A DNA stretch of 48,371 nucleotides, taken from positions 1-48,371 of the forward strand of contig JACBFI010000028.1 of assembly GCA_013391385.1 (NCBI GenBank), in the 5' to 3' direction. Under the pieces are notes generated by a model. It had not been told where the DNA came from. It saw only the letters and a list, made by a program, of their open reading frames with translations, and ran no database searches. This DNA is from Sediminibacterium sp. Gen4 (GTDB taxonomy: Bacteria > Bacteroidota > Bacteroidia > Chitinophagales > Chitinophagaceae). Of this stretch, positions 99-44,473 are shown piece by piece. Both the position numbers and the translations under genes were made by a program. Within the stretch, counting starts at the first letter, position 1; the number at the start of each line of letters is the position of its first letter.

Positions 99-166
99 TT
101 GAGCCTTGTTTCTTGTAACTTCCTTGTGTCTTGTCTTCTTGTGTCTTGTCCTCTTGTCTCTTGTAC
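99..166 (-). repeat. heptanucleotide array, CAAGNNN unit
   Basis: Read on the minus strand this is a run of CAAG-type units spaced 7 nt apart, with a few 8-nt steps. It begins two bases after the stop codon of the HMA gene. Its last ~46 nt align base for base, with about eight differences, to the array inside the ABC-F gene at 14241-14303, so the two are copies of one dispersed family. Confidence 0.75.
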
Positions 167-167
167 C

Positions 168-572
168 TTAATTAAAGGGTTTGACATGGCAAGGCTTTCG
201 TGGCTGTGGTCCGCCGCCATCTGTTGCTCTTTTACAGGCAGGAGGTAGTTTTTTGTAGGCATCTTCGGAGGCCTTGGTATCATCTGCATCGAAACCGGCA
301 TTGTTCAAAGTTACTTTGAGTGCATCCGGATTGGTATAATTCGGCAGATACTGTATTCTGATCTCTCCTTGTAATAAATTGATTTTCCACTGCACTAATC
401 CGCCCTCAAGAATCCCTTTTTCTTCCAACAGGTACTTATCCAAGACCTCTTTACACTCCCAACACTTAAGGTTATTCGATTTGATGCTCACCCACTCAGG
501 TTTGGCTTGCTGGGCATTTGTAATCTTGCTGAAAACAATGAATAAGGTAACTAACAACAACATCTTTTTCAT
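168..572 (-). CDS. secreted heavy-metal-associated (HMA) domain protein
   Basis: The 134-residue product starts MKKMLLLV and has a signal peptide ending near TNAQ (residues 18-21). The rest resembles one HMA fold: a strand leading to C37-W-E-C40 at the head of a helix, then strands and a second helix ending GFDAD. HMA domains bind Cu(I) or similar soft metals through the CxxC pair; here the usual GMTCxxC reads NLKCWEC. A short Cys-containing tail follows. It acts outside the cytoplasm, so it is more likely a metal-binding or accessory protein than a cytosolic chaperone. I chose Met 572 over an in-frame Met at 596 because only the former begins a clean signal peptide. It is followed by a heptamer array and a REP-like hairpin. 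Confidence 0.7.
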   Translation of the reverse strand: MKKMLLLVTLFIVFSKITNAQQAKPEWVSIKSNNLKCWECKEVLDKYLLEEKGILEGGLVQWKINLLQGEIRIQYLPNYTNPDALKVTLNNAGFDADDTKASEDAYKKLPPACKRATDGGGPQPRKPCHVKPFN

Positions 573-591
573 AAACAGAGGATTTAAGTAA

Positions 592-706
592 TTCATTCAG
601 TGCTAATCTGTGCCCTCTCCGAAGGAGTCCTTTGGACAGTGGCAATTCTTTTAATAGACACCTACTGTATAGAAAATGTTGCCACAGAGTACACTGAAAT
701 GCACAG
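592..706. repeat. CTGTG-type intergenic element, copy 1
   Basis: The spacer between pyrE and the HMA gene has two inverted arms made of CAGTG/CTGTG words. They enclose a 30-nt core at 616-645 that begins TCTCCGAAGGAGTC and ends CAGTGGCAA. The same core occurs in opposite orientation at 21247-21276 with one difference in 30, and with the same kind of flanking arms. The core contains its own palindrome (CTCCGAAGGAG). Confidence 0.75.
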
Positions 707-709
707 AAA

Positions 710-1342
710 TTAGAGCCCTTGCCAGTTGGCAGGGTCCTTTCTCCATTCCAGCAATAATTGTTCCGTTTTCAGAGAAACTTGTCCTTTTTCAACTGCCAGA
801 CTGATCAGGCTGCTATAATTTGTTAATGATTTATACGTGATACCCGCTTTTGCAAAAGCCTCATCCGCATGTGGGAATCCATAGGTAAATATGGACACCA
901 TCCCTACTACTTCCACTCCTGCAGCACGTAATACATTTACAACCTGTAAACTGCTTTTACCTGTAGAAATCAGGTCTTCTATGACCAATACTTTTTGTCC
1001 GGTCGAGTAAAATCCTTCAATCTGATTTCCCATTCCATGTTCCTTAGGTTTTGGACGAACATATACATAGGGTAACTTCAACTGATCGGCCGCCATGGCG
1101 CCCCAGGCAATCCCTGCCGTGGCCACTCCCGCCAACATTTCTGCTTCCGGGAATCCTTCAAAAATAACATTGCACAATTCGCTTTTGATAAAATCGCGAA
1201 CATATGGGAAGGATAATACTTTACGATTGTCACAATAAATCGGACTTTTCCAGCCGCTTGCCCAAGTAAAAGGACTTTCCGGACTCAGTTTTACGGCTCC
1301 TACCTGAAGTAGTTTTTCTGCTACTGCTTTTTCGTTGGTCAT
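710..1342 (-). CDS. pyrE: orotate phosphoribosyltransferase
   Basis: This 210-residue enzyme converts orotate and PRPP to OMP, the fifth step of pyrimidine synthesis, in the cytoplasm. The PRPP loop VLVIEDLISTGKS lies at residues 118-130. The N-terminal part has the substrate-binding SPIYCDNR (33-40) and a VRPKPKEHG stretch (95-103) typical of OPRTases. Length is normal. I start it at MTNEK (1342) because the upstream in-frame Met adds residues unlike the family. It is divergent from the Nudix gene; pyrR and pyrB are about 35 kb away, so the pathway is not clustered here. Its 3' side holds a CTGTG-type element. Confidence 0.95.
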   Translation of the reverse strand: MTNEKAVAEKLLQVGAVKLSPESPFTWASGWKSPIYCDNRKVLSFPYVRDFIKSELCNVIFEGFPEAEMLAGVATAGIAWGAMAADQLKLPYVYVRPKPKEHGMGNQIEGFYSTGQKVLVIEDLISTGKSSLQVVNVLRAAGVEVVGMVSIFTYGFPHADEAFAKAGITYKSLTNYSSLISLAVEKGQVSLKTEQLLLEWRKDPANWQGL

Positions 1343-1438
1343 GGTGCGAATGTAGGAGCAATTCTGCAATTTAATCCGCCTAGGCAGATTGAAAATTTGA
1401 AAATTTGAAAATTTAAAAATAATGATCAGATTTGACCT

Positions 1439-1858
1439 ATGGGACTAAAAACAATAAAGGCTGCTGGCGGATTGGTATTGAATGAAAAGCAGGAAATACT
1501 CATGATTTTCCGAAGAGGTAAATGGGATCTTCCAAAAGGAAAACTTGATGAAGGGGAAACCTTAGCATCTTGCGCTGTTCGAGAAGTGATGGAAGAAACC
1601 GGATTAACAAAACTGGATCTAGGTCCGTTACTCAGCATTACCCATCATACTTATTTTGATACCTGGCTTAAAGAAGAAGTGATCAAAGAAACACATTGGT
1701 ATGTAATGCAAGCAAGCTCAAAAGAATTATTAATCCCCCAAACCACAGAAGACATCGAAATCATAGAATGGGTCTCTCCTACTAATATGGTAGATAAACT
1801 GAGCAATAGTTATGATACGATTGTCGAAGTGGTGAGGAAGTTGGCAGTTGATAGTTGA
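1439..1858 (+). CDS. Nudix hydrolase
   Basis: The 139-residue protein is a single Nudix domain. The Nudix box is complete at residues 34-56: G34, then E40, R48-E49, E52-E53 and G55, matching GX5EX7REUXEEXGU. This motif binds the metal that drives hydrolysis of a nucleoside diphosphate linked to another group; the exact substrate cannot be read from sequence. The early WDLPKGKLDEGE stretch is common in housecleaning Nudix enzymes. The gene is divergent from pyrE and its last six codons, including the TGA stop, lie inside a heptanucleotide array. Confidence 0.9.
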   Translation: MGLKTIKAAGGLVLNEKQEILMIFRRGKWDLPKGKLDEGETLASCAVREVMEETGLTKLDLGPLLSITHHTYFDTWLKEEVIKETHWYVMQASSKELLIPQTTEDIEIIEWVSPTNMVDKLSNSYDTIVEVVRKLAVDS

Positions 1859-1919
1859 CAGAAAGAAAAGGAAGGGATTTCCCTAAAAATTCTGTCAACC
1901 GTCAACTATCAACTGTTAA
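1839..1919. repeat. inverted heptamer array (AGTTGAY), convergent terminator-like
   Basis: Left arm 1839-1866 is built of AGTTGGC, AGTTGAT and AGTTGAC units; the right arm 1891-1919 carries the reverse complements with one extra unit. The array separates two convergent genes. The Nudix stop codon lies in the third unit, and the right arm ends 7 nt from the stop of the NTF2-like gene. It could act as a bidirectional terminator. Confidence 0.75.
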
Positions 1920-1926
1920 CTAAACA

Positions 1927-2382
1927 CTACTTCTCACACGGCTCCTTCCTTCTCGTATCAATCAAAAAATGAATCTTCCATCCACTTTTTTCACGGAGTA
2001 ACTGAAAAGAGTTTACGCCACAGTGACTAAAATTTCCATTGAAATAAAATTTGTAGGGAGTCCAAACGACAGCCAAGGGACCATCAATTTTAATGGTTTC
2101 AAATTCGATGCGTTCATCTGCTGCATTTTTTTGTAGTCCCGCTATACTTCTACCAAAATTGGATAACAGATCCGTTTTGGCGCTGATATTACCCTCTTTA
2201 TCGCGAACAATGGTTTGTAAAATATTTTTTTCAGAAAAACAATTGACTACACCGGCGGAATCTGCATTACGCATAGATGTAAACAACTGATTGATGACCG
2301 CTTTTACAGAATCTTCCGCTGACTGCGCTTGTACATGTGTTGCTGCTGCTATCAAGACAATTACCAACAAGTATTTTTTCAT
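1927..2382 (-). CDS. secreted NTF2-like (SnoaL-type) protein
   Basis: The 151-residue product has a signal peptide (MKKYLLVIVLIAAATHVQAQ) and a compact alpha+beta domain: helices containing SVKAVINQLF and MRNADSAGV, then strands ending in SGWKIHFLIDTRR. This pattern fits the NTF2/SnoaL cone fold, as seen in DUF4440-type secreted proteins of Bacteroidota. No catalytic residues can be assigned. Three in-frame Met codons are possible; I favour 2382 because AAGGA stands six bases upstream and the signal peptide starts there. It is convergent with the Nudix gene. Confidence 0.65.
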   Translation of the reverse strand: MKKYLLVIVLIAAATHVQAQSAEDSVKAVINQLFTSMRNADSAGVVNCFSEKNILQTIVRDKEGNISAKTDLLSNFGRSIAGLQKNAADERIEFETIKIDGPLAVVWTPYKFYFNGNFSHCGVNSFQLLREKSGWKIHFLIDTRRKEPCEK

Positions 2383-2435
2383 AGACATTCCTTTCAATAA
2401 AAATAGCTGTAAATATGGTTTGTTCATATCCGTTT

Positions 2436-2474: not shown

Positions 2475-2495
2475 TTTCATTATCGGATGAGGTAT

Positions 2496-7595: not shown

Positions 7596-7696
7596 AGCTG
7601 CGAGCTTCGAGCCATGAGCTATGAGCAGATACTTTATTTTATTCAGGTTTATTAAAAAGTAAATCGCTCGTAGCTCATGGCTCGTAGCTCATAGCT
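7596..7696. repeat. inverted heptamer arms (GAGCYRY) between divergent genes
   Basis: Left arm 7596-7626 and right arm 7666-7696 are reverse complements over 31 nt with four differences. Each arm is four tandem heptamers of the type GAGCYNY. Unlike most arrays here it lies between two divergent promoters, so it is unlikely to be simply a terminator. Confidence 0.8.
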
Positions 7697-7737
7697 TATT
7701 TAACGCTTCTTTATCAGCATACACTATATTGCAATCG

Positions 7738-9468: not shown

Positions 9469-9510
9469 CTTGAAGCCTGTTGCTTGAAGCTTGTAGCTTG
9501 TAGCTTTCGT
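9469..9510. repeat. heptamer array CTTGNAG
   Basis: Six tandem 7-nt units (CTTGAAG, CCTGTTG, CTTGAAG, CTTGTAG twice, CTTTCGT) between two convergent genes. The next 30 nt remain low in complexity (TTTCTTC words). Confidence 0.7.
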
Positions 9511-9541
9511 GTTCCCTGTTTCTTCTTTCTTGTTTCTTCCC

Positions 9542-14606: not shown

Positions 14607-14613
14607 AAAAAAT

Positions 14614-14736
14614 AAAAAGTCAAAAGTTAAAAGTTAAAAAAAACTCTGTGATCCTCTGTGCCTAACTCTGTCAACTCTGTGGTAAAAAAAATAACCGCAG
14701 AGTTACACGGAGTCCGGCACGGAGTAGCACAGAGTT
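14614..14736. repeat. CAAAAGT heptamers followed by CTCTGTG inverted arms
   Basis: A short array of TAAAAGT/CAAAAGT heptamers (14614-14641) follows the ABC-F stop. It is followed by two arms of CTCTGTG words, 14642-14683 and 14694-14736, that are reverse complements at roughly 34 of 43 positions, around an A-rich loop. The genes on both sides are convergent, so the long imperfect hairpin may terminate both. Confidence 0.75.
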
Positions 14737-14745
14737 TTTTATTAC

Positions 14746-16196: not shown

Positions 16197-16204
16197 TCTA
16201 TTTT

Positions 16205-16232
16205 CACTTTTGACTTTTCACTTTTGACTTTG
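16205..16232. repeat. heptamer array CACTTTT/GACTTTT
   Basis: Four tandem 7-nt units between the acyl-CoA dehydrogenase stop codon and its terminator. The unit is the reverse complement of the CAAAAGT family found after the ABC-F and recF genes. Confidence 0.7.
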
Positions 16233-17439: not shown

Positions 17440-17454
17440 GAAAGAAGATTTTTG

Positions 17455-17483
17455 ATTTTTTGATCGCTGATTTTTTGATTTTT
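17455..17483. repeat. heptamer array GATTTTT
   Basis: Units GATTTTT, GATCGCT, GATTTTTT and GATTTTT (7, 7, 8 and 7 nt) in the spacer upstream of the acyl-CoA dehydrogenase gene. The same unit occurs at 20253-20316. The remaining spacer up to 17611 holds nothing I recognise. Confidence 0.6.
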
Positions 17484-20246: not shown

Positions 20247-20252
20247 TTTAAT

Positions 20253-20316
20253 TTTTGATTTTTTGATCTATGATTTTTTGATTTGAATCAAGAAATCATA
20301 GATCAAAAAATCAAAG
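20253..20316. terminator. 31-bp inverted heptamer array between convergent genes
   Basis: Left arm 20253-20283 and right arm 20286-20316 are reverse complements over 31 nt with two differences, around a 2-nt centre. Each arm consists of GATTTTT/GATCTAT units. It begins 6 nt after the TonB receptor stop and ends 2 nt before the amidase stop. It should fold into a strong hairpin with U-rich arms in both transcripts. Confidence 0.75.
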
Positions 20317-20318
20317 AA

Positions 20319-21128
20319 TCAATAATATTTCTTTTGAAGATTATACAAAACACTTTTATCTAAATCATTCATTCGCTTAGTGGTATCCTGTAAGAAATGG
20401 CGCTTGAAGGATTGTATGGCTGCGCTGGTATCTTTTACATCATAACCTATAATACGCAATGCCTGAATATGATTAAAATTTGCGGGAACAGGTTCTCTGA
20501 TTTCATCATACCAAAGACCAAATCCTTTTTCTGCCAATAATTTCCAGGGAAACCGATAATTGGGATCATTTTTACGTGTTGGGGCAATATCACCATGACC
20601 AATAAAGTTGGCAGATGGAATAGCATATTGCTTTTTGAGTCTATCTAACAAACTCAATAAACTATTGATCTGCAAACTATCAAAGGGCTCAAATCCATTG
20701 TTGTCTAATTCAATTCCTATGGAGACAGAATTGATATCGGTTTGGTTACCCCACTTCCCTACTCCACCATGCCATGCACGCAGATAATCGTTCAACATAT
20801 GATGTAATACACCAGATTTACAGATCACATAATGCGCACTTACAGAAGTACGGGGAAGTGTAAATGTTTTGAGTGTCTGGTCACAAGAATTTTGTGCAGT
20901 ATGATGAATGATGACAAAACTGGGCTTTCGCAAATTAAAATTGGTAGTCCCGACCCAATACGGAGGTAATAAAGCAGAGTCGGAAAATGCATTCTCCTTC
21001 GGCAATGCCGCTATCTCTTTGGCATAAGCTTTTACTTTTTGCTTGTATACCTTATTGGTAGACTTATATGGATGCGTTGAACAAGCAATGAAGATGAATA
21101 CAAAGAGTAATAAAACTGAACTTCTCAT
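20319..21128 (-). CDS. N-acetylmuramoyl-L-alanine amidase, lipoprotein
   Basis: The 269-residue protein has a lipobox (FIAC, Cys 16) and an amidase_2 (AmpD/PGRP) domain from about residue 68. It shows VIIHHTAQ (H75/H76), SAHYVI, the tryptophan of AWHGG, IGIELDN with E140, and GHGDIAPTRKNDPN with H178 and D188. H75 or H76, H178 and D188 would hold the zinc. Such enzymes cut the bond between muramic acid and the stem peptide in peptidoglycan. About 70 C-terminal residues (from about 200) form a helical extension. It probably sits in the periplasm on a lipid anchor and serves wall recycling or remodelling. It is divergent from the HD gene. Confidence 0.9.
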   Translation of the reverse strand: MRSSVLLLFVFIFIACSTHPYKSTNKVYKQKVKAYAKEIAALPKENAFSDSALLPPYWVGTTNFNLRKPSFVIIHHTAQNSCDQTLKTFTLPRTSVSAHYVICKSGVLHHMLNDYLRAWHGGVGKWGNQTDINSVSIGIELDNNGFEPFDSLQINSLLSLLDRLKKQYAIPSANFIGHGDIAPTRKNDPNYRFPWKLLAEKGFGLWYDEIREPVPANFNHIQALRIIGYDVKDTSAAIQSFKRHFLQDTTKRMNDLDKSVLYNLQKKYY

Positions 21129-21309: not shown

Positions 21310-21918
21310 ATGTCTTTACACTTGGGAAGAACAACATTTGGAGATCCTGTTAACAAAGGAAATGTACTATCCAGAGAAGAAGCAGAAGCACTATTTCATG
21401 AATGGGTAATAAACCCCAGATTGAAATTACACATGCTTCAGGTTGGACACCTGATGAAATGCTGGGCAGCTGAAAAGCTACAGGCTGATGATGCCACACA
21501 ATGGCGTTGGGAAATGGCCGGACTTCTACACGACGCAGACTGGGATCAATGGCCGGAATTGCATTGTAAAAAAATCATTGAAGAACTGGAACAGCGGAAT
21601 ATCGATCCGGAGATCATTCGTGCCATCGCCTCTCATGGTCATCATTATTTTGGCGTGATACCGGAAACCGAAATGGATAAAATGCTCTATGCATTTGATG
21701 AATTGTCCGGACTCATTCATGCGTATTCATTGATGCGTCCGGGTGGATATGATGGCATGGATGTAAAAGGCGTCAACAAACGACTCAAAGAAAAATCATT
21801 TGCCGCGAATGTTTCCCGAGAAGATATCAAAGATGCTTGTGAAAGAGCAGGAATAGACTTGAATGAGCTTATTGCATTTATTATTCCGAGACAGAGGGAG
21901 GTGAAGGGTGAAGGGTGA
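21310..21918 (+). CDS. HD-domain protein
   Basis: The 202-residue product is a single HD-type domain: H in LHMLQVGHLMKCW, then LLHDADWD with the HD pair, then ASHGHHYFG and a later D in YAFDELSG. HD domains are metal-dependent phosphohydrolases acting on nucleotides or similar substrates; this small stand-alone kind is often annotated as a predicted HD hydrolase. The substrate is unknown. An in-frame TTG at 21304 also exists, but ATG at 21310 is preferred. The last codons and the TGA stop lie within the start of the long heptamer array, which gives the tail REVKGEG. Confidence 0.8.
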   Translation: MSLHLGRTTFGDPVNKGNVLSREEAEALFHEWVINPRLKLHMLQVGHLMKCWAAEKLQADDATQWRWEMAGLLHDADWDQWPELHCKKIIEELEQRNIDPEIIRAIASHGHHYFGVIPETEMDKMLYAFDELSGLIHAYSLMRPGGYDGMDVKGVNKRLKEKSFAANVSREDIKDACERAGIDLNELIAFIIPRQREVKGEG

Positions 21919-22032
21919 AAAGTGAAAGGTGAAAGGTGAAAAGAAAATCAAAAGTAAAAAATCAAAAATCAGACATCCGACATCAGACATCAGACATTAG
22001 ACATTAGACATCAGACATCTACCATCTGACAT
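21900..22032. repeat. array of 19 heptamers in one register
   Basis: 133 nt can be divided into 19 consecutive 7-mers without a gap. The unit changes along the array: GGTGAAR (six), then AAAA-rich (four), then CAGACAT, CCGACAT or TAGACAT and related (nine), while the 7-nt register is kept. It begins within the last codons of the HD gene and ends 12 nt before the M24 peptidase start. This is the longest array in the window. Confidence 0.85.
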
Positions 22033-23429: not shown

Positions 23430-24020
23430 ATGAATCAATTTCTTTCTCAGGAATATTGGAACAACAGGTATTTACAACATCAAACAGGTTGGGATATAGG
23501 CACTGTTTCAACACCGCTTAAGGAATATATCGATCAATTGTCTGATAAACATATCAGCATTCTCATTCCCGGAGGCGGCAACAGTTACGAAGCATTGTAT
23601 TTATTGGAACAAGGATTTACAGATGTTACCGTTATTGATTTGGCACCGGCAGTAACAGAAAAATTGAAATCTGAAACCAAATCCTATCAACCACATATAA
23701 AAATTCTCACTGGAGATTTTTTTGAATTAAATGGACAATACGATCTCATCCTTGAACAAACATTTTTCTGTGCCATCGATCCGGCATTAAGAGGACATTA
23801 CGTTACCAAAATGTCGGAACTACTGAAACCTCAAGGCAAATTGGTTGGAGTATTGTTCAACAGATCTTTCGAAGGTGGCCCACCTTTTGGCGGAAGTGAA
23901 GCGGAATACAGGACACTATTCAGTTCAACATTTCAGCAAATTCACATGGAACCTTGCTACAACTCCATTAACCCACGTTCAGGTAGTGAGTTATTTGTTG
24001 TGTTGGGAGATAGCGTATAG
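23430..24020 (+). CDS. SAM-dependent methyltransferase, TPMT-like
   Basis: The 196-residue enzyme opens with YWNNRYLQHQTGWDIG, the TPMT-type start (W-x-x-R ... T-G-W-D). The SAM-binding loop is ILIPGGGNSYEALYL (about 45-59), followed by VTVIDLAP and GDFFEL. Members methylate sulfur or other small acceptors; thiopurine methyltransferase is the named example. The natural substrate is not known. The final TAG stop overlaps the first unit of a heptamer array. It faces bshB1 convergently. Confidence 0.85.
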   Translation: MNQFLSQEYWNNRYLQHQTGWDIGTVSTPLKEYIDQLSDKHISILIPGGGNSYEALYLLEQGFTDVTVIDLAPAVTEKLKSETKSYQPHIKILTGDFFELNGQYDLILEQTFFCAIDPALRGHYVTKMSELLKPQGKLVGVLFNRSFEGGPPFGGSEAEYRTLFSSTFQQIHMEPCYNSINPRSGSELFVVLGDSV

Positions 24021-24118
24021 CTTATGGTTCATGGCTAATAGGTTATAACCTATGGCAAATAGTAAATAGTGTACCTATCAATTAAGCTATAAGCAATAAA
24101 CTATAAGCTATAAACATC
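24016..24118. repeat. heptamer array TATAGCT/AATAGGT with inverted part
   Basis: Nine units at 24016-24078 (TATAGCT, TATGGTT, CATGGCT, AATAGGT and similar), then five at 24084-24118 (AAGCTAT, AAGCAAT, AAACTAT and similar) in opposite sense. The methyltransferase stop codon is inside the first unit, and the array ends 3 nt before the bshB1 stop. Confidence 0.75.
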
Positions 24119-24120
24119 GC

Positions 24121-24849
24121 CTATGTACTATGCTTAATAATCGCATCAAAGCTCCTAATACCGATGATCTTCTCCGTAATATATCCTTCGGCATAGCCCA
24201 CTCCTATTCTTTTTCCCAGCATCATGGCACGGGCTTTTACTGTTTCTAAAAACTGTGGCGTGGAGATATAAGTTTGGGGCTCATCACCGCCCGTGCTATT
24301 AAATTGTGTGGTATAAGCCAAGACAGATTCAATCTTTTTATCCATGTATGCGGTGATATCGACAACAAATGATGGCTGAATAAAACGATCCTGTATGTAA
24401 TGAAAAACATAAGTAGGTCGCCATACTTCTTGTTTTATATCATCCACTATCGTTTCAATTTTTCGCAATCCGGATAAGAAAGCAGCATCGGAAACCAGTT
24501 TAGCACTTCGTCCATGATCCGGATGTCTGTCTTCCGGTGCATTGGCTAAAACGATCTCAGGCTGGTATTTCCGGATCATTTGAATCACAAGGCGCTGATG
24601 TGTTTCATCATTCTGGAAAAAACCATCTGCCATACCTAGGTTTTCTCGTACTTGAACACCTAGAATTTTGGCAGCAGCAGCAGCTTCCTGTTTACGAGTT
24701 TCTGCGGTACCACGAGTACCCAATTCACCACGCGTAAGATCTACAATTCCTACTTTCTTTCCTTCTGCCAATGCAGCCAGAATGGTACCGGAACAACCCA
24801 GTTCAACATCATCCGGATGAACGCCAAACGCCAATATATCCAGTTTCAT
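24121..24849 (-). CDS. bshB1: bacillithiol biosynthesis deacetylase BshB1
   Basis: The 242-residue LmbE-type enzyme removes the acetyl group from GlcNAc-malate in bacillithiol synthesis. Zinc-binding HPDDVELGC is at 11-19, with EDRHPDHGRS near 115-125 supplying the third ligand and a general acid-base His. The conserved VDLTRGELGTRG stretch and the C-terminal SFDAIIK fit the BshB1 subgroup. I start at MKLDILAFG (24849), since upstream in-frame Met codons add non-family residues. A TACCTTTG -7 element lies 18 nt before the start. A bacilliredoxin at 31158-31574 suggests that bacillithiol is used in this organism. Confidence 0.9.
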   Translation of the reverse strand: MKLDILAFGVHPDDVELGCSGTILAALAEGKKVGIVDLTRGELGTRGTAETRKQEAAAAAKILGVQVRENLGMADGFFQNDETHQRLVIQMIRKYQPEIVLANAPEDRHPDHGRSAKLVSDAAFLSGLRKIETIVDDIKQEVWRPTYVFHYIQDRFIQPSFVVDITAYMDKKIESVLAYTTQFNSTGGDEPQTYISTPQFLETVKARAMMLGKRIGVGYAEGYITEKIIGIRSFDAIIKHST

Positions 24850-26319: not shown

Positions 26320-26811
26320 TTAGCTTTTCATATTGATGTATTGGAGGGGGATACCGAATCCGCCTGCATTACATTTTGCTATAACTTCTTGTAAATCATC
26401 AATTTTCTTGGCAGTTACCCGGATAATATCGTCCATGATGGCGGCTTGCACCTTCAATCCGCTGTCTTTGATCATTTTGACGATCTTTTTGGCATCTTCC
26501 TGCTTGAGACCATTTCGAACCGGCACTTCCTTTTTCACCACTTTACCGCTGGGATAGGCATCTTTCGAAAAATTGAAAGCATTCCCATCTATCCCCTGCT
26601 TAATAGCCCGACTAATGAGTACATCGATCAGTTGCTTCATTTTCATATCACTCTCTACTTCCAGAGAAACGATAAAATCTTTCTTATTCAGTTCGACAGA
26701 AACAGGAGAATCTCTAAAATCAAATCTACCCGCAATTTCTTTTTTCACCGTATTGATGGCATTATCAAGTGTTTGCAGGTCTACTTTGCTGGCTATGTCA
26801 AAAGAAGGCAT
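26320..26811 (-). CDS. yajQ: YajQ family (DUF520) nucleotide-binding protein
   Basis: The 163-residue product is the full two-lobed YajQ fold: [20 protein letters not shown] at the start, [25 protein letters not shown], and [15 protein letters not shown] near the middle. YajQ proteins bind nucleotides, and in Xanthomonas a member is a cyclic-di-GMP effector; whether this one responds to c-di-GMP cannot be told. It acts in the cytoplasm. A TATCTTTG -7 element lies 14 nt upstream of the start. Confidence 0.93.
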
Positions 26812-26825
26812 GGTGTTGTTTTTTG

Positions 26826-26833
26826 CAAAGATA
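26826..26833 (-). promoter_or_regulatory. -7 element of yajQ
   Basis: TATCTTTG on the minus strand, an exact TAnnTTTG match only 14 nt before the start codon. Confidence 0.5.
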
Positions 26834-26841
26834 GGGAGGAT

Positions 26842-26988
26842 TATAGCTAATAGGTAATAGCTTATAGGTAATGGCTTATAGCGTAGTCCAATTTGTAACT
26901 AAGCGTTTTAGAAATATTTAATCCCATAAACTTCAATTTACCAACTACTCACAATTACCTATTAGCCATAACCTATCTGCCAAGAACT
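26842..26988. repeat. inverted heptamer arms AATAGGT/TATAGCT in a 374-nt spacer
   Basis: Six units at 26842-26883 (TATAGCT, AATAGGT, AATAGCT, TATAGGT, AATGGCT, TATAGCG) and about five units at 26954-26988 in opposite sense (ATTACCT, ATTAGCC, ATAACCT). They occupy much of the gene-free stretch 26812-27185, which otherwise holds the TonB receptor terminator; I see no gene or RNA in the rest. Confidence 0.75.
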
Positions 26989-26994
26989 ATATGC

Positions 26995-27022
26995 AAAAAA
27001 AAGCCCCGATAGACATCGGGGC
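26995..27022 (-). terminator. terminator of the third TonB receptor gene
   Basis: GCCCCGAT (27003-27010), AGAC loop, ATCGGGGC (27015-27022), followed on the minus strand by eight T. It lies 164 nt beyond the TonB receptor stop, so the 3' UTR would be long, unless an unrecognised short transcript lies between. Confidence 0.75.
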
Positions 27023-27185
27023 CGCCTTCTATATAATGCACATGAGAAAAAAAACAAAGTTGATGCAGCTAAATTGACAGCTAAACACTACATAAAATTG
27101 TCAAATAAGGATGAACGGAGTCATTTTAGGTCGAATGGAAAATAGTATCTATTCTACCGCTAAACTCCGTTCATGAATCTGTCCA

Positions 27186-29633
27186 TTAATTACCTCCACC
27201 GATGCTCACGCGATTCTGTTCTTCATTCGCACCGCCTCTCTTACGCTGAGCTGCAGTTTTACCTTTACTAAAGCGGTAAGTGAAACTCAAGTTTACTACC
27301 CTGCTATCTCTTGCTTGACGGATCGTTACATCTACATTCTGGTATCTGCTATATCCACGGAATTGTTGTGTATAGAGGATATCACGTACCACCAATCGGA
27401 TGGTTCCTTTATTTTTCAATACCTGCTTGGTAAAGCCAACATTAATAGCACCCATCGATCTCATCGCCAATACGCCTTCTACTCCCCCGCTGCGGTAAAA
27501 TCCACTCAATTCAGCACCCCAACCTTTTGGTAAAGTAAATTGGTTAGAGATATTCGTCATGAAGGTTGCACCTCCTACTGATATTTCTCCACCGTTTACA
27601 ATACCTGTGAATTTGTTATAAAACCCATTCATATAAATATTGGTTCTAAACCATTTATTAATCGGCATACCCAGACTCACAGAAGCTCCGATATTTTGTC
27701 TGCGTGCAATATTGCTCTTCTTTACAAATGAACTATTGGTACTATCAATCTGCTCCAGTACATCTTGAAGAATATCATTAGTAGTGCTATAGTTGATAGA
27801 GGTATTCAAGATTCCTCTGAAAGTATGATTCAACTCGATATTATGACTGAATTGCGGTCTCAAGTATGGGTTACCCACCTGGTAAGTATATTTATCCAGG
27901 AAGTAAAAGAATGGATTCAAGTCCTGATAGTTCGGACGATCAATACGACGACCATAACTCAAAGCAAACTGATTCTTTTCGTTCGCTGTATAACCAATGT
28001 ACATGGTTGGGAATACTTGCGTATAGTTGCGTTTAAATACTTCTCCGGTTGTTAATTGATTACCGGTAATATTGGTATTCTCTGCACGAAGTCCTAATTG
28101 CGCACTCCATTTTTTGTTGAATTGTTTATTCAAATTCAGATAAGCTGCATTGATATTTTCTTTATAGAGAAAGTGATTGCTACGGGTAACATCATTTACA
28201 AATGAAGTACCATTCCAATTGGCATATTGCGCATCATTATCCGTATTTACATAACTACTTTTCAATCCGGCTTCTAATTTCATTTGTCCTTTGAGTGATT
28301 GAGAGTAATCTGCTTTCACACTATAAATATTGATCGCTGCCGGTAAGATACCACGTAAGATTTCTTTAGGTGATTTGATATTACCTGACTGATCATAGAA
28401 ATCATTGGTCAGCATTTGGGTATTATCTTGTGTGTATCTGATATAATCAGCATCAACAGTCAATTCTCTTCCGGTACTATCAAATACATGACGCAGGTTC
28501 ATATTCACGCCTACATTATTAAAATGAAGATGTACATCATTAATGGCTTGTGTACGTGTTACCAAAGCCCCCATCGGATCTTTGATAAAAGTTGTATTGT
28601 CTGTGTATTCAATACCCTTACTGTCATAACCATTTACAACCAATCCTAAAGTGGTTTTCTTACTCATGAAATAATCAAATCCGGCTTTGTAATTATAACT
28701 CTTGAACTCACGCTGGTTGTCAGCGAATTGATCAAAAGAAGATAATAAAGCATTGGTATTTTGATTGCGGAAGTTTCTATCGATCTTCAGTGCTCCGAAG
28801 TTTTCATTATAGTTATGACTTGCATTTCCGAAGAAATTCATTTTCCCTTTTCTATAATTCAGATTCACACTGTTATTGGTTTTCGGAAGAACACCTTGTG
28901 TATATCCTGTAGTGATACTGGCATTATAACCCATCACTTTGGTCTTTTTAGTTTTGATATTGATCACGCCTGAATTACCCGAAGCATCAAAACGCGCCGG
29001 TGGATTGGTCATGATTTCAATAGACTCAAGATTGGAACTCGACATATTGTTCAACATATTAGCAAGATCTTGCGCACTGAGATAAGTAGGTTTGCCATCT
29101 AACATCACTATTACCCCTTGTTTTCCTTTCAAGCTAATATTACCATCCTTATCTACAGCAATACCCGGAGATTTTTCAAGTACTTCCATCACAGTAGCAC
29201 CTGCATTGGTAGGAGAAGCATCTACATTAATGATGGTTCTATCCAATTTCTGCTCAATCAAAGGCTTTTTAGAGCTTACCACTACAGCCTGTAACTCCTT
29301 TGATGCATTTACCAGCGTAACAGGTTTCAAAGTGTAGACTTGGCCATTCGCCAGCTCAAAAGATTCACTGTAATATTTGGCATAGCCAACAGACTGAATC
29401 ACCACCAGGTATTTACCTGCGGCTAATTTTTCAACTTCAAACTGACCGGTCTTATCTGTAACAGCCAGTTTTACCACTGCTGAATCTTTAGCGCGTAGTA
29501 CACCTACCGAAGCGGCTTCTACAGCTTTTTGACTACCGTTTACGGTACCGTTTACTTTTCCTGTTTGTGCCTGAGCCGCCAAAGACATGGTCGTTAGTCC
29601 GATTGTGGCGAGCAGGGTCATCAACTTTCTCAT
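27186..29633 (-). CDS. outer-membrane beta-barrel family protein (TonB receptor-like)
   Basis: The 815-residue protein has a signal peptide (MRKLMTLLATIGLTTMSLAAQAQ), a carboxypeptidase-regulatory-like repeat (about 25-108), a plug (about 125-230, TVMEVLEKSPGIAVD, IVMLDGKPTYLS, MTNPPARFDASG) and a barrel. The C-terminal tail is unusually basic and Gly-rich (GKTAAQRKRGGANEEQ). The plan matches the receptor at 17685-20246. The ligand is unknown. The upstream region carries a striking 18-bp palindrome with -7-like sequences in both arms, so expression is probably regulated. Confidence 0.9.
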   Translation of the reverse strand: MRKLMTLLATIGLTTMSLAAQAQTGKVNGTVNGSQKAVEAASVGVLRAKDSAVVKLAVTDKTGQFEVEKLAAGKYLVVIQSVGYAKYYSESFELANGQVYTLKPVTLVNASKELQAVVVSSKKPLIEQKLDRTIINVDASPTNAGATVMEVLEKSPGIAVDKDGNISLKGKQGVIVMLDGKPTYLSAQDLANMLNNMSSSNLESIEIMTNPPARFDASGNSGVINIKTKKTKVMGYNASITTGYTQGVLPKTNNSVNLNYRKGKMNFFGNASHNYNENFGALKIDRNFRNQNTNALLSSFDQFADNQREFKSYNYKAGFDYFMSKKTTLGLVVNGYDSKGIEYTDNTTFIKDPMGALVTRTQAINDVHLHFNNVGVNMNLRHVFDSTGRELTVDADYIRYTQDNTQMLTNDFYDQSGNIKSPKEILRGILPAAINIYSVKADYSQSLKGQMKLEAGLKSSYVNTDNDAQYANWNGTSFVNDVTRSNHFLYKENINAAYLNLNKQFNKKWSAQLGLRAENTNITGNQLTTGEVFKRNYTQVFPTMYIGYTANEKNQFALSYGRRIDRPNYQDLNPFFYFLDKYTYQVGNPYLRPQFSHNIELNHTFRGILNTSINYSTTNDILQDVLEQIDSTNSSFVKKSNIARRQNIGASVSLGMPINKWFRTNIYMNGFYNKFTGIVNGGEISVGGATFMTNISNQFTLPKGWGAELSGFYRSGGVEGVLAMRSMGAINVGFTKQVLKNKGTIRLVVRDILYTQQFRGYSRYQNVDVTIRQARDSRVVNLSFTYRFSKGKTAAQRKRGGANEEQNRVSIGGGN

Positions 29634-35351: not shown

Positions 35352-35440
35352 TTGTGACGAAGTCACAAGGGACAAGAAACAAGACACAAGGAAGATGCAA
35401 GAGACAAGAAACAAGGTACAAGAAAGATCGAATGTTCAAG
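35352..35440. repeat. hairpin plus CAAG-family heptamer array
   Basis: TTGTGAC-GAA-GTCACAA (35352-35368) is a perfect 7-bp hairpin. From 35364 about eleven 7-nt units follow in register (CACAAGG, GACAAGA, AACAAGA, CACAAGG, AAGATGC and similar). It lies upstream of coaD and downstream of pyrB on the minus strand. Confidence 0.75.
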
Positions 35441-35514
35441 GAATATGCCACAGGCCATACGCTGCATGCTGCATGGAACCTTGAAAATTGCTTCTTGACA
35501 CTTCCGTGCAACGT

Positions 35515-35549
35515 GTAGCTTGCAGCTTGAAGCTAGCAGCTAGCAGCCT
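35515..35549. repeat. heptamer array GCAGCTW
   Basis: Five tandem units (GTAGCTT, GCAGCTT, GAAGCTA, GCAGCTA, GCAGCCT) ending 4 nt before the pyrB stop codon. Looser words of the same kind continue to the left at about 35455-35475. Confidence 0.7.
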
Positions 35550-36517: not shown

Positions 36518-36680
36518 ATGTCGGATGTCTGATGTCGGATGTCTGATTTATTGAAAACAACAATTTCAGATACATACTATATCCATTAAGTTTTATTAAA
36601 ATAATCGATATTTGCAAATCCAATCAGACATCAGACATCAGACATCAGACATCAGACATCAGACATCAGACATCAGACAT
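36518..36680. repeat. inverted CAGACAT heptamer arms between pyrR and pyrB
   Basis: The left arm is four units of ATGTCKG (36518-36545); the right arm is eight exact copies of CAGACAT (36625-36680). The arms are reverse complements with a 79-nt loop. The last base of the right arm is already the first of the pyrR stop codon (TCA on the plus strand). The eight perfect copies imply recent expansion. Confidence 0.85.
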
Positions 36681-37201
36681 CAAACCAGCACCACTTCATC
36701 CACCTCATCCCTCTCCTTCCAGCAAACTTTTACCTTCTGGGAAATGATGGTATCAATGGTTTTACCGGAGAAATCGGGTTGAATGGGGAGTTCGCGGCTG
36801 AAGCGACGATCGATCAGCACGCAGAGTGACACTTTTGAAGGTCTGCCAAAGTCGAGTAATGCATCCAGTGCCGCACGGATTGTTCTACCGGTGTATAAGA
36901 CATCATCAATCAGTATCACATGTTTGTTTTCCAGGCTAAAGGGGATATCGGTACTATTGGCAATATGTAAGCCCTGACGCACATCATCACGATAAAAAGT
37001 GATATCCAATTTTCCGTATTGAATGGCTCCGGGTTGTACTAGACCTCGTAACTCAGCAACAATTCGGTCGCTAAGAAATATCCCCCTCGGTTGTAATCCA
37101 ATGATCACCGTATCCTGTAATGTGGCATTATGCTCAAGTATCTGATGTGCCAATCGCTTTACCGTAAGGGTCAGTTGCTGTGCTGATAATATCGTCTTCA
37201 A
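36680..37201 (-). CDS. pyrR: PyrR: pyrimidine regulator / uracil phosphoribosyltransferase
   Basis: The 173-residue type I phosphoribosyltransferase has the PRPP loop VILIDDVLYTGRT, then the PyrR mark AALDALLDFGRP and LCVLIDRRFSRELPI. In Gram-positive bacteria PyrR binds pyr mRNA and causes attenuation, and has some uracil phosphoribosyltransferase activity. In this phylum its role is less clear. It lies upstream of pyrB on the same strand. I saw no attenuator resembling the known PyrR-binding consensus in the spacer. Confidence 0.92.
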   Translation of the reverse strand: MKTILSAQQLTLTVKRLAHQILEHNATLQDTVIIGLQPRGIFLSDRIVAELRGLVQPGAIQYGKLDITFYRDDVRQGLHIANSTDIPFSLENKHVILIDDVLYTGRTIRAALDALLDFGRPSKVSLCVLIDRRFSRELPIQPDFSGKTIDTIISQKVKVCWKERDEVDEVVLV

Positions 37202-38368: not shown

Positions 38369-38512
38369 CAAAAGTCAAAAGTAAAAAGGCAAAAGTGAAT
38401 AGGCATCTTCTATAGGCTATGAACTATTAGCCCTCTGCTTCAAGCCGCAAGCTACACGCTACACGCTTTAATTTTTGACTTTTTACTTTTGACTTTTGAT
38501 TTTTGACTTTTC
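38369..38512. repeat. inverted CAAAAGT heptamer arms between recF and the DUF721 gene
   Basis: The left array at 38369-38403 starts 2 nt after the recF stop (CAAAAGT, CAAAAGT, AAAAAGG, CAAAAGT). The right arm at 38471-38512 is six units of ACTTTTG and variants, the reverse complement. Between them are AAGCYRC-type heptamers. A weak promoter (TTG, 17 nt, TACCTTTA) ends at 38523, partly inside the right arm. Confidence 0.75.
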
Positions 38513-38527: not shown

Positions 38528-38809
38528 ATGTCCGAATTCCACATTGGCGATGCTATCAAAGGCTTCTTGAAAAAGAGCAATCTCCGCAACGGTGTCAGAG
38601 CTGTGCAGATTGAAGACATCTGGGAAAAACTGATGGGAAAAACGATCGCGCGGTATACTGATAAGATTCAAATCATCAACCAGAAACTTTTTATTACTAC
38701 CAGCGTGGGGCCACTTAAGAATGAATTACTCTACCAAAAGGCACAAATTATTGAACGCGTGAATGAAGCTTTCGGTGAGAAAGTGATCACGGAAGTCGTT
38801 ATTCAATAA
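38528..38809 (+). CDS. DUF721 (DciA-like) protein
   Basis: The 93-residue product is a DUF721 domain: IGDAIKGFLKKSNLRNGV, then VQIEDIWEKLMGKTIARYT and LFITTSVGPLKNELLYQK. This family includes DciA, the ancestral loader of the replicative helicase in bacteria without DnaC, and the place next to recF agrees with a role in replication. The short length is usual in Bacteroidota. The stop codon TAA overlaps the first base of a GAGCYRY heptamer array. Confidence 0.88.
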   Translation: MSEFHIGDAIKGFLKKSNLRNGVRAVQIEDIWEKLMGKTIARYTDKIQIINQKLFITTSVGPLKNELLYQKAQIIERVNEAFGEKVITEVVIQ

Positions 38810-39015
38810 GCTGTGAGCTACGAGCTGCGAGCCACGAGCTTTGAGTGGCAGTTGTAATAGGCATTATACTATCAATTGTGCAAATGATAAGGCTTGAGAA
38901 ATAGTCTTAGTCTAAGATCAATTAAGGGCAATACATCAAGTGTCTAAACAAGCTATTTGATCCTTCAAATTAAACTTACAAAAAGCTCACAGCTCATGGC
39001 TCATAGCTCGCAGCT
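38809..39015. repeat. inverted GAGCYRY heptamer arms between convergent genes
   Basis: Arms 38809-38840 and 38984-39015 (32 nt each) match as reverse complements at 24 positions, and all eight differences are transitions. Each arm reads as tandem GAGCYRY units. The 143 nt between the arms show nothing recognisable. The arms abut the stop codons of both convergent genes. Confidence 0.8.
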
Positions 39016-40692: not shown

Positions 40693-40710
40693 AAGTGTGC
40701 TGCAATATAA

Positions 40711-41547: not shown

Positions 41548-41587
41548 AAAGAGATTGTCTCAAAGGCCTTGAGATTCGTTTGAGGGT

Positions 41588-41636
41588 TTATGGCTTATGG
41601 ACCATAGACCATGGTCCATGGTCTATGGTCTATGCT
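41588..41636. repeat. palindromic heptamer array CCATGGT
   Basis: Seven tandem units (TTATGGC, TTATGGA, CCATAGA, CCATGGT twice, CTATGGT, CTATGCT). The middle part, 41600-41630, is a perfect palindrome with a single central base, because the unit itself is nearly self-complementary. Confidence 0.8.
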
Positions 41637-41643
41637 AAAAGAA

Positions 41644-41678: not shown

Positions 41679-41698
41679 ATAAAATTATGCAGTTGCTA

Positions 41699-42619
41699 TT
41701 ATTGTTGAGGTGCACCTGGATTTGTCGGCTGAGATTGTGGTGTTGGCTTAGTAACATCCACTATTTCAATATCAAATCCGAGATTTGAGTATGGAGGAAT
41801 TACCGGAGCGGAGCCCTGCTGACCATAGGCCATCCATGCCGGAACGATGATACGTCCCTTACCGCCTTTACCAAATAAACGCAGTGCTTCATCCCAACCC
41901 GGAATTACGGATCTGGTTCCTACTACCACAGGGTAAGGTTGGTTATTAGGTCCATTCGGATTCATATTGGTATCAAATACTTCCCCGTCTTTTTTACCCT
42001 GTGTAAAATAACCTTTATACAAAACTGATGCCTGCCAACCTGAGTCAGCTTTTTGTCCCGTACCTGGATTCAGTATCTCCACCTGAACACCTGAAGCCGT
42101 AGACTGTACTTTCATGTTCTTTTTATTGGCATATTCTTTTACTTCTGCTATTTCTCTTTGCTTTTCAAGCTCCATTTCCTTCTCATAATCTACTTTTACT
42201 TCATCCTGGGTGTTGAATACTTTCAGGACCTCAAAACGTCCGTTAATCATATCACCCTGTTTGAACATCTCATTGTATTCAATCATCTGCATTCTTTTCA
42301 GGGTATCGAGAAACAGTACAAACTCAACTTTATCTCCGGATGCACATTTTGTAATGATTTCGGTGAATGTATGTTTACCCAGATTAGCAGTATCCAAAGG
42401 GAAATAAACAGGAATACGACCAAAAGAAGATTGCAATACAGAATCCTTAGATTTCAACTTGTATTCAATATGTAGTTTCAAAAACTGTCCTTGCTTAACT
42501 TTTTCCTTGGTTCCTCCGCTGGTGATTTTATACGTCATTCCGGAAGGTGCTTTTTCGAATTGGTTACAGCTTGCAAGCAAAACGATCGCCAGTAACAGCG
42601 AAGTGGTTGTTCTCATCAT
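41699..42619 (-). CDS. FKBP-type peptidyl-prolyl isomerase lipoprotein
   Basis: The 306-residue protein has a lipobox (VLLASC, Cys 18), a first FKBP-like half (about 28-135) that lacks the usual active-site residues, a charged helix (about 140-170) and a canonical FKBP domain (about 172-290): VLYKGYFTQGKKDGEVFDTN, SVIPGWDEALRLFGKGGKGR, AYGQQG and FDIEIVDV. It would catalyse prolyl isomerisation in folding envelope proteins. The C-terminal tail is Pro/Gln-rich. It starts 4 nt after nrnA, so the two are one operon. The start may be the second Met. Confidence 0.9.
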   Translation of the reverse strand: MMRTTTSLLLAIVLLASCNQFEKAPSGMTYKITSGGTKEKVKQGQFLKLHIEYKLKSKDSVLQSSFGRIPVYFPLDTANLGKHTFTEIITKCASGDKVEFVLFLDTLKRMQMIEYNEMFKQGDMINGRFEVLKVFNTQDEVKVDYEKEMELEKQREIAEVKEYANKKNMKVQSTASGVQVEILNPGTGQKADSGWQASVLYKGYFTQGKKDGEVFDTNMNPNGPNNQPYPVVVGTRSVIPGWDEALRLFGKGGKGRIIVPAWMAYGQQGSAPVIPPYSNLGFDIEIVDVTKPTPQSQPTNPGAPQQ

Positions 42620-42623
42620 TGTT

Positions 42624-43631
42624 TTATTGTAATTGATTGTGATACGCTTTTATGATCTCTTTAAATTGTTTAACAGTTGTTTCTAGACTTTCACTGCTTC
42701 TGCCACCGGCTGCATTTTTATGACCGCCTCCTTCAAAATGTTTTCTGGCAAATGTGTTCACATCAAAATCACCCTTGCTTCTAAAACTCCATTTACGCTC
42801 TTCATCTCTGTCGATGACAATGGCTCCGAGTTTGATGCCTTGAATCGTTAATAAATAATTCACCAATCCCTCTGTGTCACCCGTTTTGATATCGAATTTT
42901 TGCAAATCAGCTCGTGTAATATACATCAGACTGGTATTGAATTCATACAAAACTTCCATTCTGTTCAATAATGCATGTCCAATAAACCGCAATCTGTTTT
43001 CCAAAAAACTATCATAGATACTTTCATGCACTTTGGTGTGGTTCATCCCTGTTTCCTTCAAATGTGCCGCCATTCTGTGTACGGAAGCGGTAGTGGCAGG
43101 AAAACGGAAAGATCCTGTATCTGTCATCAAACCGGTATACAAACATTCAGCCATCGCTACATTCAGGCGATCTGCATAACCGGAAGACATAATAAAATCG
43201 TACACCATTTCGCAAGTAGAGCTTTTGGAAGTATCGCTGATACCATAGGTAAAAGCTTCTTCTTGTGGCTGTTGGTGGTGATCGATCAATATTTTAATGC
43301 ATTTCGCCTCCGTTAATGGCTGTTCCATATGTTTGGTGCGATGTAAGACATTAAAGTCGAGACAAAACAGCACTTCCGCTTTTTGGATGATGTCCAATGC
43401 ATGGTGTCTTCGCTGTTCAAAATCGATGACTTCGCTGCAACCGGGCATCCAATCCAGAAAATTGGCCCAATTGGTAGGTGAAATCACGGTTACCTCATGA
43501 CCTAAGGATTGGAGAAAATGGTACAATCCCAAAGCTGACCCCATGGCATCGCCATCCGGTTTCTGGTGCATGGTAATGACCGCTTTGAAAGGGGTTTTGA
43601 GAGAAGGTAGAAATTGATCGATTGATTGCAT
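42624..43631 (-). CDS. nrnA: DHH-family bifunctional oligoribonuclease / PAP phosphatase
   Basis: The 335-residue protein has the DHH domain motifs: MHQKPDGDAMGSALGL (motif I), FCLDFN, LIDHHQQP (the DHH motif), and TGLMTDTGSFRF, and the DHHA1 domain with FEGGGHKNAAGG near the C-terminus. NrnA degrades short RNA oligonucleotides and hydrolyses 3'-phosphoadenosine 5'-phosphate in organisms lacking Orn. The start 43631 (MQSIDQFLPSL) is chosen over an upstream Met that would overlap the ndk promoter region. It is followed directly by the FKBP gene. Confidence 0.92.
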   Translation of the reverse strand: MQSIDQFLPSLKTPFKAVITMHQKPDGDAMGSALGLYHFLQSLGHEVTVISPTNWANFLDWMPGCSEVIDFEQRRHHALDIIQKAEVLFCLDFNVLHRTKHMEQPLTEAKCIKILIDHHQQPQEEAFTYGISDTSKSSTCEMVYDFIMSSGYADRLNVAMAECLYTGLMTDTGSFRFPATTASVHRMAAHLKETGMNHTKVHESIYDSFLENRLRFIGHALLNRMEVLYEFNTSLMYITRADLQKFDIKTGDTEGLVNYLLTIQGIKLGAIVIDRDEERKWSFRSKGDFDVNTFARKHFEGGGHKNAAGGRSSESLETTVKQFKEIIKAYHNQLQ

Positions 43632-43735
43632 AGTTAGGCGGCAAAATTGCGGTTTCCCAACTGTTCCGGCAAATGATTTTCCTACCATTTAACAAAATTC
43701 CTATGATAATCTCCACAAAACGCCCTGCTTTGCTG

Positions 43736-43743
43736 TACTTTTG
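43736..43743 (+). promoter_or_regulatory. -7 element of ndk
   Basis: TACTTTTG, an exact TAnnTTTG match, 26 nt before the ndk start. No convincing TTG is seen at the usual distance. Confidence 0.5.
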
Positions 43744-43769
43744 CCGCCGAAATCGATAAAGCAAGTACT

Positions 43770-44186
43770 ATGAGTAACAGAACTTTTACCATGATTAAAC
43801 CGGATGCTACCGCTAAAGGACATACCGGTGCTATTTTAGACCAGATCGTGAAAGCCGGATTCAGCATCAAAGCCATGAAATGGACTCGTCTGACCCCTGA
43901 GCAAGCAGGTTTATTCTATGATATCCACCGTGAGCGCCCTTTCTTTGGAGAGTTGGTTGAATTCATGAGCAGTGGTCCGATCGTTGCTGCCATCCTTGAA
44001 AAAGAGAATGCAGTAGCTGATTTCCGTAAATTGATCGGTGCTACCAATCCGGCACAAGCTGAAGAAGGAACCATTCGTAAATTATATGCTGCTTCTGTTG
44101 GCGAAAATGCTGTTCATGGAAGTGATAGCGATGAGAATGCTGTGATTGAAGGCGATTTTTTCTTCTCTAAGTTAGAGAGATTCTAA
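43770..44186 (+). CDS. ndk: nucleoside-diphosphate kinase
   Basis: The 138-residue enzyme balances NTP and dNTP pools by passing a phosphate through a His. The start [17 protein letters not shown], the [11 protein letters not shown] stretch, [15 protein letters not shown] and the active-site segment [12 protein letters not shown] with the phospho-His (about residue 116) are all present. Length is normal. It ends at a heptamer arm and a strong terminator, the last clear core gene before the tRNA fragment. Confidence 0.97.
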
Positions 44187-44230
44187 ATAGTTGACAGTTG
44201 AAAGTATCTAGTTGACAGGGATAGAAATGA

Positions 44231-44262
44231 AAGAGGCGAACAGTAAACTGTTCGCCTCTTTT
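44231..44262 (+). terminator. terminator of ndk
   Basis: AAGAGGCGAACAG (44231-44243), TAAA loop, CTGTTCGCCTCTT (44248-44260), with further T. A 13-bp perfect stem 44 nt after the stop. Confidence 0.9.
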
Positions 44263-44401
44263 GTGCTGTTATTGAGTAAAGTGTAGTAAAAAAGACTGAC
44301 CGTTCGATTGATCTCTATTTATTGGAACAACTGTATTATAATACCGACGACATTGTCGGTCTCGATGCTGATATTGATGAACAATGGCATAATACACAAA
44401 T

Positions 44402-44429
44402 CAGACATCCGACATCCGACATCCGACAT
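44402..44429. repeat. heptamer array CAGACAT/CCGACAT
   Basis: Four units in register: CAGACAT then three CCGACAT. Same family as 21970-22032 and 36625-36680. Confidence 0.75.
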
Positions 44430-44473
44430 AAAAAATTCTCCCCCTGTCATCTGTCAACTCTCAACTGTCAACT

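Follow-up and report, generated by a model that had tools for sequence, protein, structure and literature searches.

Inverted heptanucleotide arrays in a Sediminibacterium genome are probably the ends of selfish elements encoding S23 four-helix-bundle proteins

We have analysed a 48,371-bp stretch of DNA from Sediminibacterium sp. Gen4 (the window), which belongs, as contig C22, to a draft genome of 3.52 Mb and carries numerous imperfect tandem arrays of 7-nt units between its genes. In our judgement these heptad arrays are probably the paired, inverted recognition ends of selfish elements, the one gene of which encodes an S23/IVP four-helix-bundle protein. S23, the 23S-rRNA-intervening-sequence protein (PF05635, TIGR02436), is a small protein that is also carried by some intervening sequences (IVS) of bacterial 23S rRNA. 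Its fold agrees with the four-helix bundle of solved S23 proteins, and its closest solved relatives are deposited five-chain entries. In cyanobacteria, heptanucleotide repeats were recognized decades ago and have been used as fingerprints, and we know of no explanation of their origin. In the following, G000 is the genome of the window, other G numbers are genomes of the same genus, and L numbers are separately examined loci. By pyrB the closest named relatives of the window are Chitinophagaceae; G084 is about 91-93% identical to it across long stretches.

An earlier note on this DNA had described the heptad period as a feature of the intergenic spacers, and autocorrelation bears this out. Within the window, intergenic identity reaches 0.351 at lag 7, whereas the remaining lags between 5 and 13 give 0.27-0.29; harmonics of 0.324, 0.310 and 0.293 follow at lags 14, 21 and 28. 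Coding DNA gives 0.258 at lag 7, without a peak. A genome sample of 20 stretches of 20 kb (400 kb) yields intergenic values of 0.315, 0.303 and 0.298 at lags 7, 14 and 21, just 0.276 at lag 28 and mostly 0.26-0.28 at the remaining lags; the lag-28 harmonic is clear in the window alone. When sample and window were pooled for array calling, 87 lag-7 arrays were found in 44.9 kb of intergenic DNA, compared with 0-6 at each of lags 4-6 and 8-13, 69 at lag 14 and 11 at lag 15. Lag 7 thus clearly exceeds its neighbours, a result on which the earlier note had let its proposal stand or fall. A shuffle, made once, yielded no lag-7 array, and 11 were called in 403 kb of coding DNA. The locus coordinates given previously are essentially correct, and one unit listed as a heptamer, GATTTTT, is actually an 8-mer (TTTTTGAT, 20247-20318).

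Most arrays are paired, forming an arm, a loop and a reverse-complement arm, often beside stop codons. Many of the loci noted earlier, which are real arrays, consist of two such arms; their inverted pairing and their link to S23 had gone unnoticed. In sample and window together, 27 of 35 same-spacer array pairs are reverse complements and none is direct (random pairs, 8.4%), while 76 of 98 arrays have a reverse-complement partner within 250 bp (control, 15 of 98).

The same arrangement surrounds S23 genes. Five PF05635 genes were found in G000; each of the five sits between inverted arrays, and the unit differs from gene to gene, being an 8-mer in one case. Matches to PF05635 occur in 57 of 147 genus genomes, at 0-15 per genome and with stops in some copies, and in 157 of 198 sampled Bacteroidota genomes. 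A gene was counted as bracketed when the inverted repeat around it scored at least 16. For the genus we used 81 distinct copies out of 221 PF05635 matches (summed from a per-genome table), a set weighted toward high-scoring matches and array-rich genomes, in which 64 of 81 copies are bracketed, compared with 1 of 130 controls (genes 300-600 nt long; Fisher p ~7e-37). Lag-7 arrays are present on both sides of 41 of the 81 copies and of none of the 130 controls, and on at least one side of 60 and 25, respectively. The best period of the 64 bracketed copies is 7 in 48 cases, 8 in 12, 9 in three and 10 in one. From Bacteroidota we took 30 high-scoring loci, each from a different genome; 17 of them score at least 16 and 22 at least 14, as opposed to 1 and 2 of 25 control genes.

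The association extends to plasmids of four phyla. Of 25 plasmid records with S23 matches, 23 were retrieved, in one of which the profile recovered no S23; the other 22 (cyanobacteria 18, Chlorohelix of the Chloroflexota 2, Treponema saccharophilum 1, Bernardetia 1) contributed a single S23 copy apiece. All 22 copies are bracketed, 21 with a best period of 7. Several of these loci (three from Planktothrix, some from Nostoc) are near-identical, so there are fewer than 22 independent cases. Two of the three S23 copies that lie among 80 named loci of a pyrB comparison pass the threshold of 16, and the third scores 15.4. Nineteen further single-copy loci of the genus fall into two kinds. Thirteen of them (L350-L362) are a divergent, mutually similar paralogue, and none of these is bracketed; the remaining six are ordinary S23 genes, of which five are bracketed and the sixth, although flanked by arrays on either side, fails the inverted-repeat score. 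The array-less paralogue is an internal control for the link between S23 and arrays, and is perhaps a domesticated form.

Unit and period (7, 8 or 9) track the S23 tree better than shuffles do. The tree of the 81 copies was made by a quick method from few columns, with 31 of its 78 inner branches open, and many of its clades are uniform in unit and orientation. Period changes 8 times on this tree (mean 14.0 and minimum 11 in 300 shuffles) and unit cluster, at a cut of 0.5, changes 20 times (mean 41.4, minimum 37). Within the genus, pairs whose flanks are not shared agree in unit and orientation in 24 of 1004 cases below 25% protein identity and, as identity rises, in 19 of 857, 22 of 365, 18 of 88 (45-60%) and 3 of 6 (60-80%). 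For pairs with copies from outside the genus, which may include orthologous loci, unit sharing is 3.9% below 30% identity, 23 of 70 at 60-80% and 13 of 15 at 80-95%. The unit families of the window themselves occur as inverted brackets of genus S23 genes, and the units resemble those of particular S23 clades. The earlier suggestion of one mechanism behind unrelated units is therefore supported by this bracketing and by the agreement of unit and period with the tree. Across 15 genomes, S23 copy number also correlates with array density (Spearman 0.72, p 0.002); G047, with 13 S23 genes and a modest array density, fits poorly.

The arrays of the window are as follows.

90..164, heptad array of CTTGNNY (CAAG family), located at the edge of the contig; by eye, no partner in 1-89
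1389..1420, 8-mer array, TTGAAAAT x4; by eye resembles the AATTTGAA 8-mer unit of one S23 clade
1836..1922, AGTTGAC cassette, arms 1836-1861 and 1894-1921, in a convergent spacer; loop inverted in G084
7596..7699, GAGCNNN cassette, arms 7596-7626 and 7666-7699; both arms vary together among relatives
9469..9538, GCTTGTA array continuing into a TGTTTCT array, in a convergent spacer
14607..14639, CAAAAGT array, single arm, adjoining a CTCTGTG inverted repeat
16201..16231, TTTTSAC array, single arm, with a stop codon 6 bp away
17449..17483, TTTTTGAT 8-mer array
20247..20322, TTTTTGAT 8-mer inverted cassette occupying a convergent spacer; at another locus of the genome an S23 gene is bracketed by this unit
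21899..22032, composite arrays of GGTGAAR, CAAAAGT and CAGACAT
24010..24113, ATAGCTT cassette, arms 24010-24070 and 24083-24113; in G084 the arms are of ATGGTCC
26842..26988, ATAGCTA/ATAGGTA cassette; G084 has ATGGTCC, G095 and G077 have AAGTCCG, and in G083 none was seen
35365..35547, CAAGNNN array and GCAGCTW array, 3' of pyrB
36518..36685, GTCTGAT cassette in the pyrR-pyrB spacer, arms 36518-36547 and 36623-36685
38369..38511, CAAAAGT cassette between recF and a small downstream open reading frame (ORF)
38809..39015, GAGC cassette with a 144-bp loop; arm and loop homologues at non-orthologous loci of G000, G084 and G088
41585..41636, self-complementary CCATGGT array, directly followed by a terminator-like hairpin
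44188..44473, AGTTGAC cassette, arms 44189-44205 and 44444-44473; a CAGACAT array (44400-44429) is nested in it

The inverted repeat at 14650-14737 contains CTCTGTG motifs about 10-12 bp apart, and similar CTCTGCG blocks lie within a heptad cassette of G095. Since 7 is not divisible by 3, units that contain TGA or TAG (AGTTGAC, GTGAAAA, ATAGCTA) should stop all three frames after genes, as at 44188-44473, 1836-1922 and similar arrays.

The comparison of orthologous spacers between close relatives, proposed in the earlier note, was carried out and shows that a given spacer may have a different unit family, or none, in a relative. The spacer at 24020-24121 has ATAGCTT in G000 and ATGGTCC in G084, the one at 26811-27186 exists in four states among relatives, and arrays also differ in copy number. 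The two arms of a spacer change together: arm pairing has a median of 0.61 within species (n=40) compared with 0.29 between species (n=118), in a count that took all inverted repeats scoring at least 13, some of which are ordinary hairpins. In four species pairs with a recognizable loop, its orientation is the same in two and inverted in two. A GTCNGAT-unit pattern is present in 8 of the 147 genomes of the genus, G084 among them. Where the window has its pyrR-pyrB cassette, the orthologous spacers of G084, G095, G064 and G077 instead contain an S23 gene flanked by CAAG arrays. In G084 this gene is on the strand opposite to that in the other three, through either an arm-to-arm flip or independent insertions. 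Whole cassettes, arms and loop, of the GAGC family (loop of about 145 bp) are found at several non-orthologous places in three genomes. Whole-cassette copying as a general rule was not retained, as it was demonstrated for the GAGC family alone.

We propose that a ring of S23 binds the repeated unit on each arm, putatively with one unit per subunit. The median arm is 4.4 units long, and 4-5 units are present in 49 of 116 arms, which is compatible with five S23 subunits, though no proof of them. The gene-less cassettes of the window may be orphan, non-autonomous or relic forms, which would often have settled near stop codons. Their derivation by simple internal deletion of S23 elements was rejected, since no S23 remnant was found in the window and their interiors look, by eye, unlike those of S23 elements. 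The spread of the elements would follow a DNA-level route, with host replication or recombination acting on hairpins; this is the route we favour because nine S23-rich genomes are without any PF00078 reverse transcriptase. We also considered S23 as a member of a named defence or phage family, and two proteins tried gave no match in PADLOC or PHROGs.

Several observations weigh against the arrays being ends of S23 elements. The window itself contains no S23 gene or remnant, 17 of 81 genus copies and 13 of 30 phylum copies fall below the bracket threshold, and shuffled flanks exceed 16 at 2 of 22 plasmid loci, both AT-rich, albeit never above the locus's own score. Over all the genus pairs without shared flanks, the rank correlation between identity and unit match is weak (0.09), so that the unit-protein signal resides in the closer pairs; equal period rises with identity just from 483 of 853 (57%) to 52 of 77 (68%). 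Own-genome arrays that match an S23 bracket arm at 0.8 or better number 85 of 95 (reversed 40, permuted 32), and an exact 9-mer version gives 92 of 95 (reversed 57); these figures speak for the link, yet both tests are permissive. G046 has arrays and no PF05635 match, and is a poor fit to the copy-density correlation. Of 36 paired cassettes, 17 have a loop of at least 35 bp, and a convincing non-orthologous homologue was found for only two of these 17 in a comparison that covered a small part of the genomes concerned, so most cassettes are not demonstrably copies; both belong to the GAGC family, and a third scripted match came from nested heptads. With so few loop homologues, the arrays may, as an alternative to transposition, have grown in place at hairpins under the action of S23. 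By eye, no target-site duplication was noticed in the GAGC alignment, for which no systematic test was made, and no interior shared by gene-less cassettes and S23 elements was seen.

Other explanations were weighed against the same data. S23 could be a resident nucleic-acid-binding regulator, with the arrays serving as operators or as 3'-untranslated-region sites for termination or mRNA stability and the brackets around its own gene serving autoregulation. We regard this as rather unlikely, even though the placement of the arrays is what it would lead one to expect. They favour 3' ends, occurring in 18 of 43 convergent, 36 of 134 tandem and 6 of 62 divergent spacers of at least 40 bp; 43% of array-to-stop-end distances (n=113) are below 10 bp compared with 23% under random placement, and 10% of array-to-start-end distances (n=77) compared with 20%. 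Six window cassettes also form RNA hairpins better than their shuffles (z -2.7 to -10.5). However, terminator-like hairpins adjoin several arrays by eye, a conserved regulon would not be expected to differ in unit, or to lack one, in the same spacer among relatives, and the variable copy number of S23 within the genus, with stops in some copies, does not fit a resident regulator. The separate hairpins were also the reason to discard the arrays as terminators themselves. Ordinary replication slippage with palindrome correction in hairpins downstream of genes, S23 being a bystander or a settler in such hairpins, seems improbable to us. Template switching would be expected to change arms together and to flip loops, and the copy-number differences between relatives and the many loops without a non-orthologous homologue in the compared sequence also agree with slippage. 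It does not account for the favoured period of 7, for unit and period tracking the S23 tree, or for bracketing at 64 of 81 copies against 1 of 130 controls, and in plasmids from other phyla, as in the Coxiella IVS, heptamers occur together with S23.

An enzymatic spreader other than S23 has still less in its favour. A route like that of diversity-generating retroelements (DGRs), in which S23, sharing the fold of Avd, recruits a reverse transcriptase to hairpin RNA, is very unlikely: PF00078 is unmatched in G000, G084, G095, G064, G088, G047, G137, G097 and G050, all of them S23-rich, and a reverse transcriptase was accordingly rejected as a required partner; three other S23-rich genomes have one PF00078 match. 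Spread by a Y1 transposase, as in systems of REPINs (hairpin-forming pairs of repetitive extragenic palindromes) and RAYTs (the associated tyrosine transposases), would suit the REPIN-like look of intergenic inverted hairpin repeats and the single Y1_Tnp gene of G000. We give it almost no credence, and the Y1 transposase was rejected as spreader, since this sole gene (L159) is adjoined by CTCCGG-type hairpins instead of heptads, a nearby heptad-like stretch lying beyond the next ORF. At the start of the window (61-90) there is a GCCGGACTTCAGTCCGGC hairpin that resembles the CTCCGG-type hairpins beside the RAYT-like gene of L159.

On the cyanobacterial plasmids of L321 and L322, S23 is encoded between cas2 and cas1, on the strand opposite to theirs, and at L339 it immediately precedes cas1. 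At L324, L327, L328, L340 and L342 it is found amid genes annotated as defence functions (DUF1156/Swt1 HEPN, DISARM/BREX or type IIL, type I restriction); the S23 of L342 is a weaker tblastn match that was not recovered by the profile. L324 (Gloeocapsa) and L340 (Chlorohelix) have both context and unit in common across two phyla.

S23 proteins are abundant in Bacteroidota, and joining them with heptad repeats makes one testable question of the two, namely whether S23 binds the unit of its own lineage and whether it moves or maintains the arrays. The clade-specific units supply many ready-made pairs of protein and target. In the literature searched, which left subscription journals mostly uncovered, no title or beginning of an abstract makes a general link between S23 and heptamer arrays.

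Among known systems, the short tandemly repeated repetitive (STRR) sequences of cyanobacteria are similar in being degenerate tandem 7-mers concentrated between genes, with several unit families. The arrays described here differ in occurring in Bacteroidota, among relatives that are Chitinophagaceae and not heterocystous cyanobacteria, and in being inverted pairs tied to S23 genes. The kinship with cyanobacterial heptanucleotides suggested in the earlier note holds for plasmids, where 18 S23 genes have inverted brackets, 17 of period 7; the likeness in brackets rests on these genes and not on chromosomal STRRs. Its statement that no counterpart had been described in Bacteroidota needs amendment, as TAACTGA direct repeats are reported from Beggiatoaceae, cyanobacteria and five Bacteroidetes, with speculation that the mobile element could be a protein that binds the repeats (MacGregor 2015, PMC4679880). 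These too are intergenic tandem heptamers of patchy taxonomy, but they have one unit in direct orientation, mostly just upstream of start codons in the main genome of that study, and neither "four helix" nor "S23" appears in its main text.

The Coxiella IVS likewise has tandem heptamers before an S23p ORF that lies within terminal inverted repeats; it is termed a selfish element, and the function of the S23 family is given as not known (Warrier 2016, PMC4990558). That IVS sits in 23S rRNA and is excised by RNase III, whereas the present arrays are intergenic, often gene-less and lineage-linked in their units: window cassettes, the five S23 loci of G000 and the plasmid loci all lie between ORFs or annotated genes. 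The S23 ORF is found at the five loci elsewhere in G000, each within terminal inverted repeats, and in none of the window cassettes, which have arms without an ORF. In their arrays these elements are STRR-like and in their gene IVS-like, and no description of the two combined in intergenic, lineage-linked elements with a large gene-less population was found in the literature searched. Avd of DGRs differs in working with a reverse transcriptase. Miniature inverted-repeat transposable elements and REPINs are likewise dispersed short inverted repeats between genes; here variable tandem arrays form the ends, no link to a transposase was found, and a shared interior is seen in the GAGC family alone, the other 15 longer loops showing none in the compared sequence. 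RAYT genes are flanked by their own repeat, unlike the Y1_Tnp gene of G000 with respect to heptads.

These comparisons suggest that formerly unexplained bacterial heptad repeats are the hallmark of one selfish DNA family. A wider reading, which we advance tentatively and hold to be somewhat less than evenly probable, is that cyanobacterial STRRs, the TAACTGA repeats of Beggiatoa, the Bacteroidota arrays and the heptamers of the Coxiella IVS are all ends of a single recombinase-free selfish superfamily, in which a pentameric S23 ring would read one unit per subunit, the protein would thereby set both the unit and its period (7, 8 or 9), about five units would make an arm, and S23 would make or move hundreds of gene-less cassettes.

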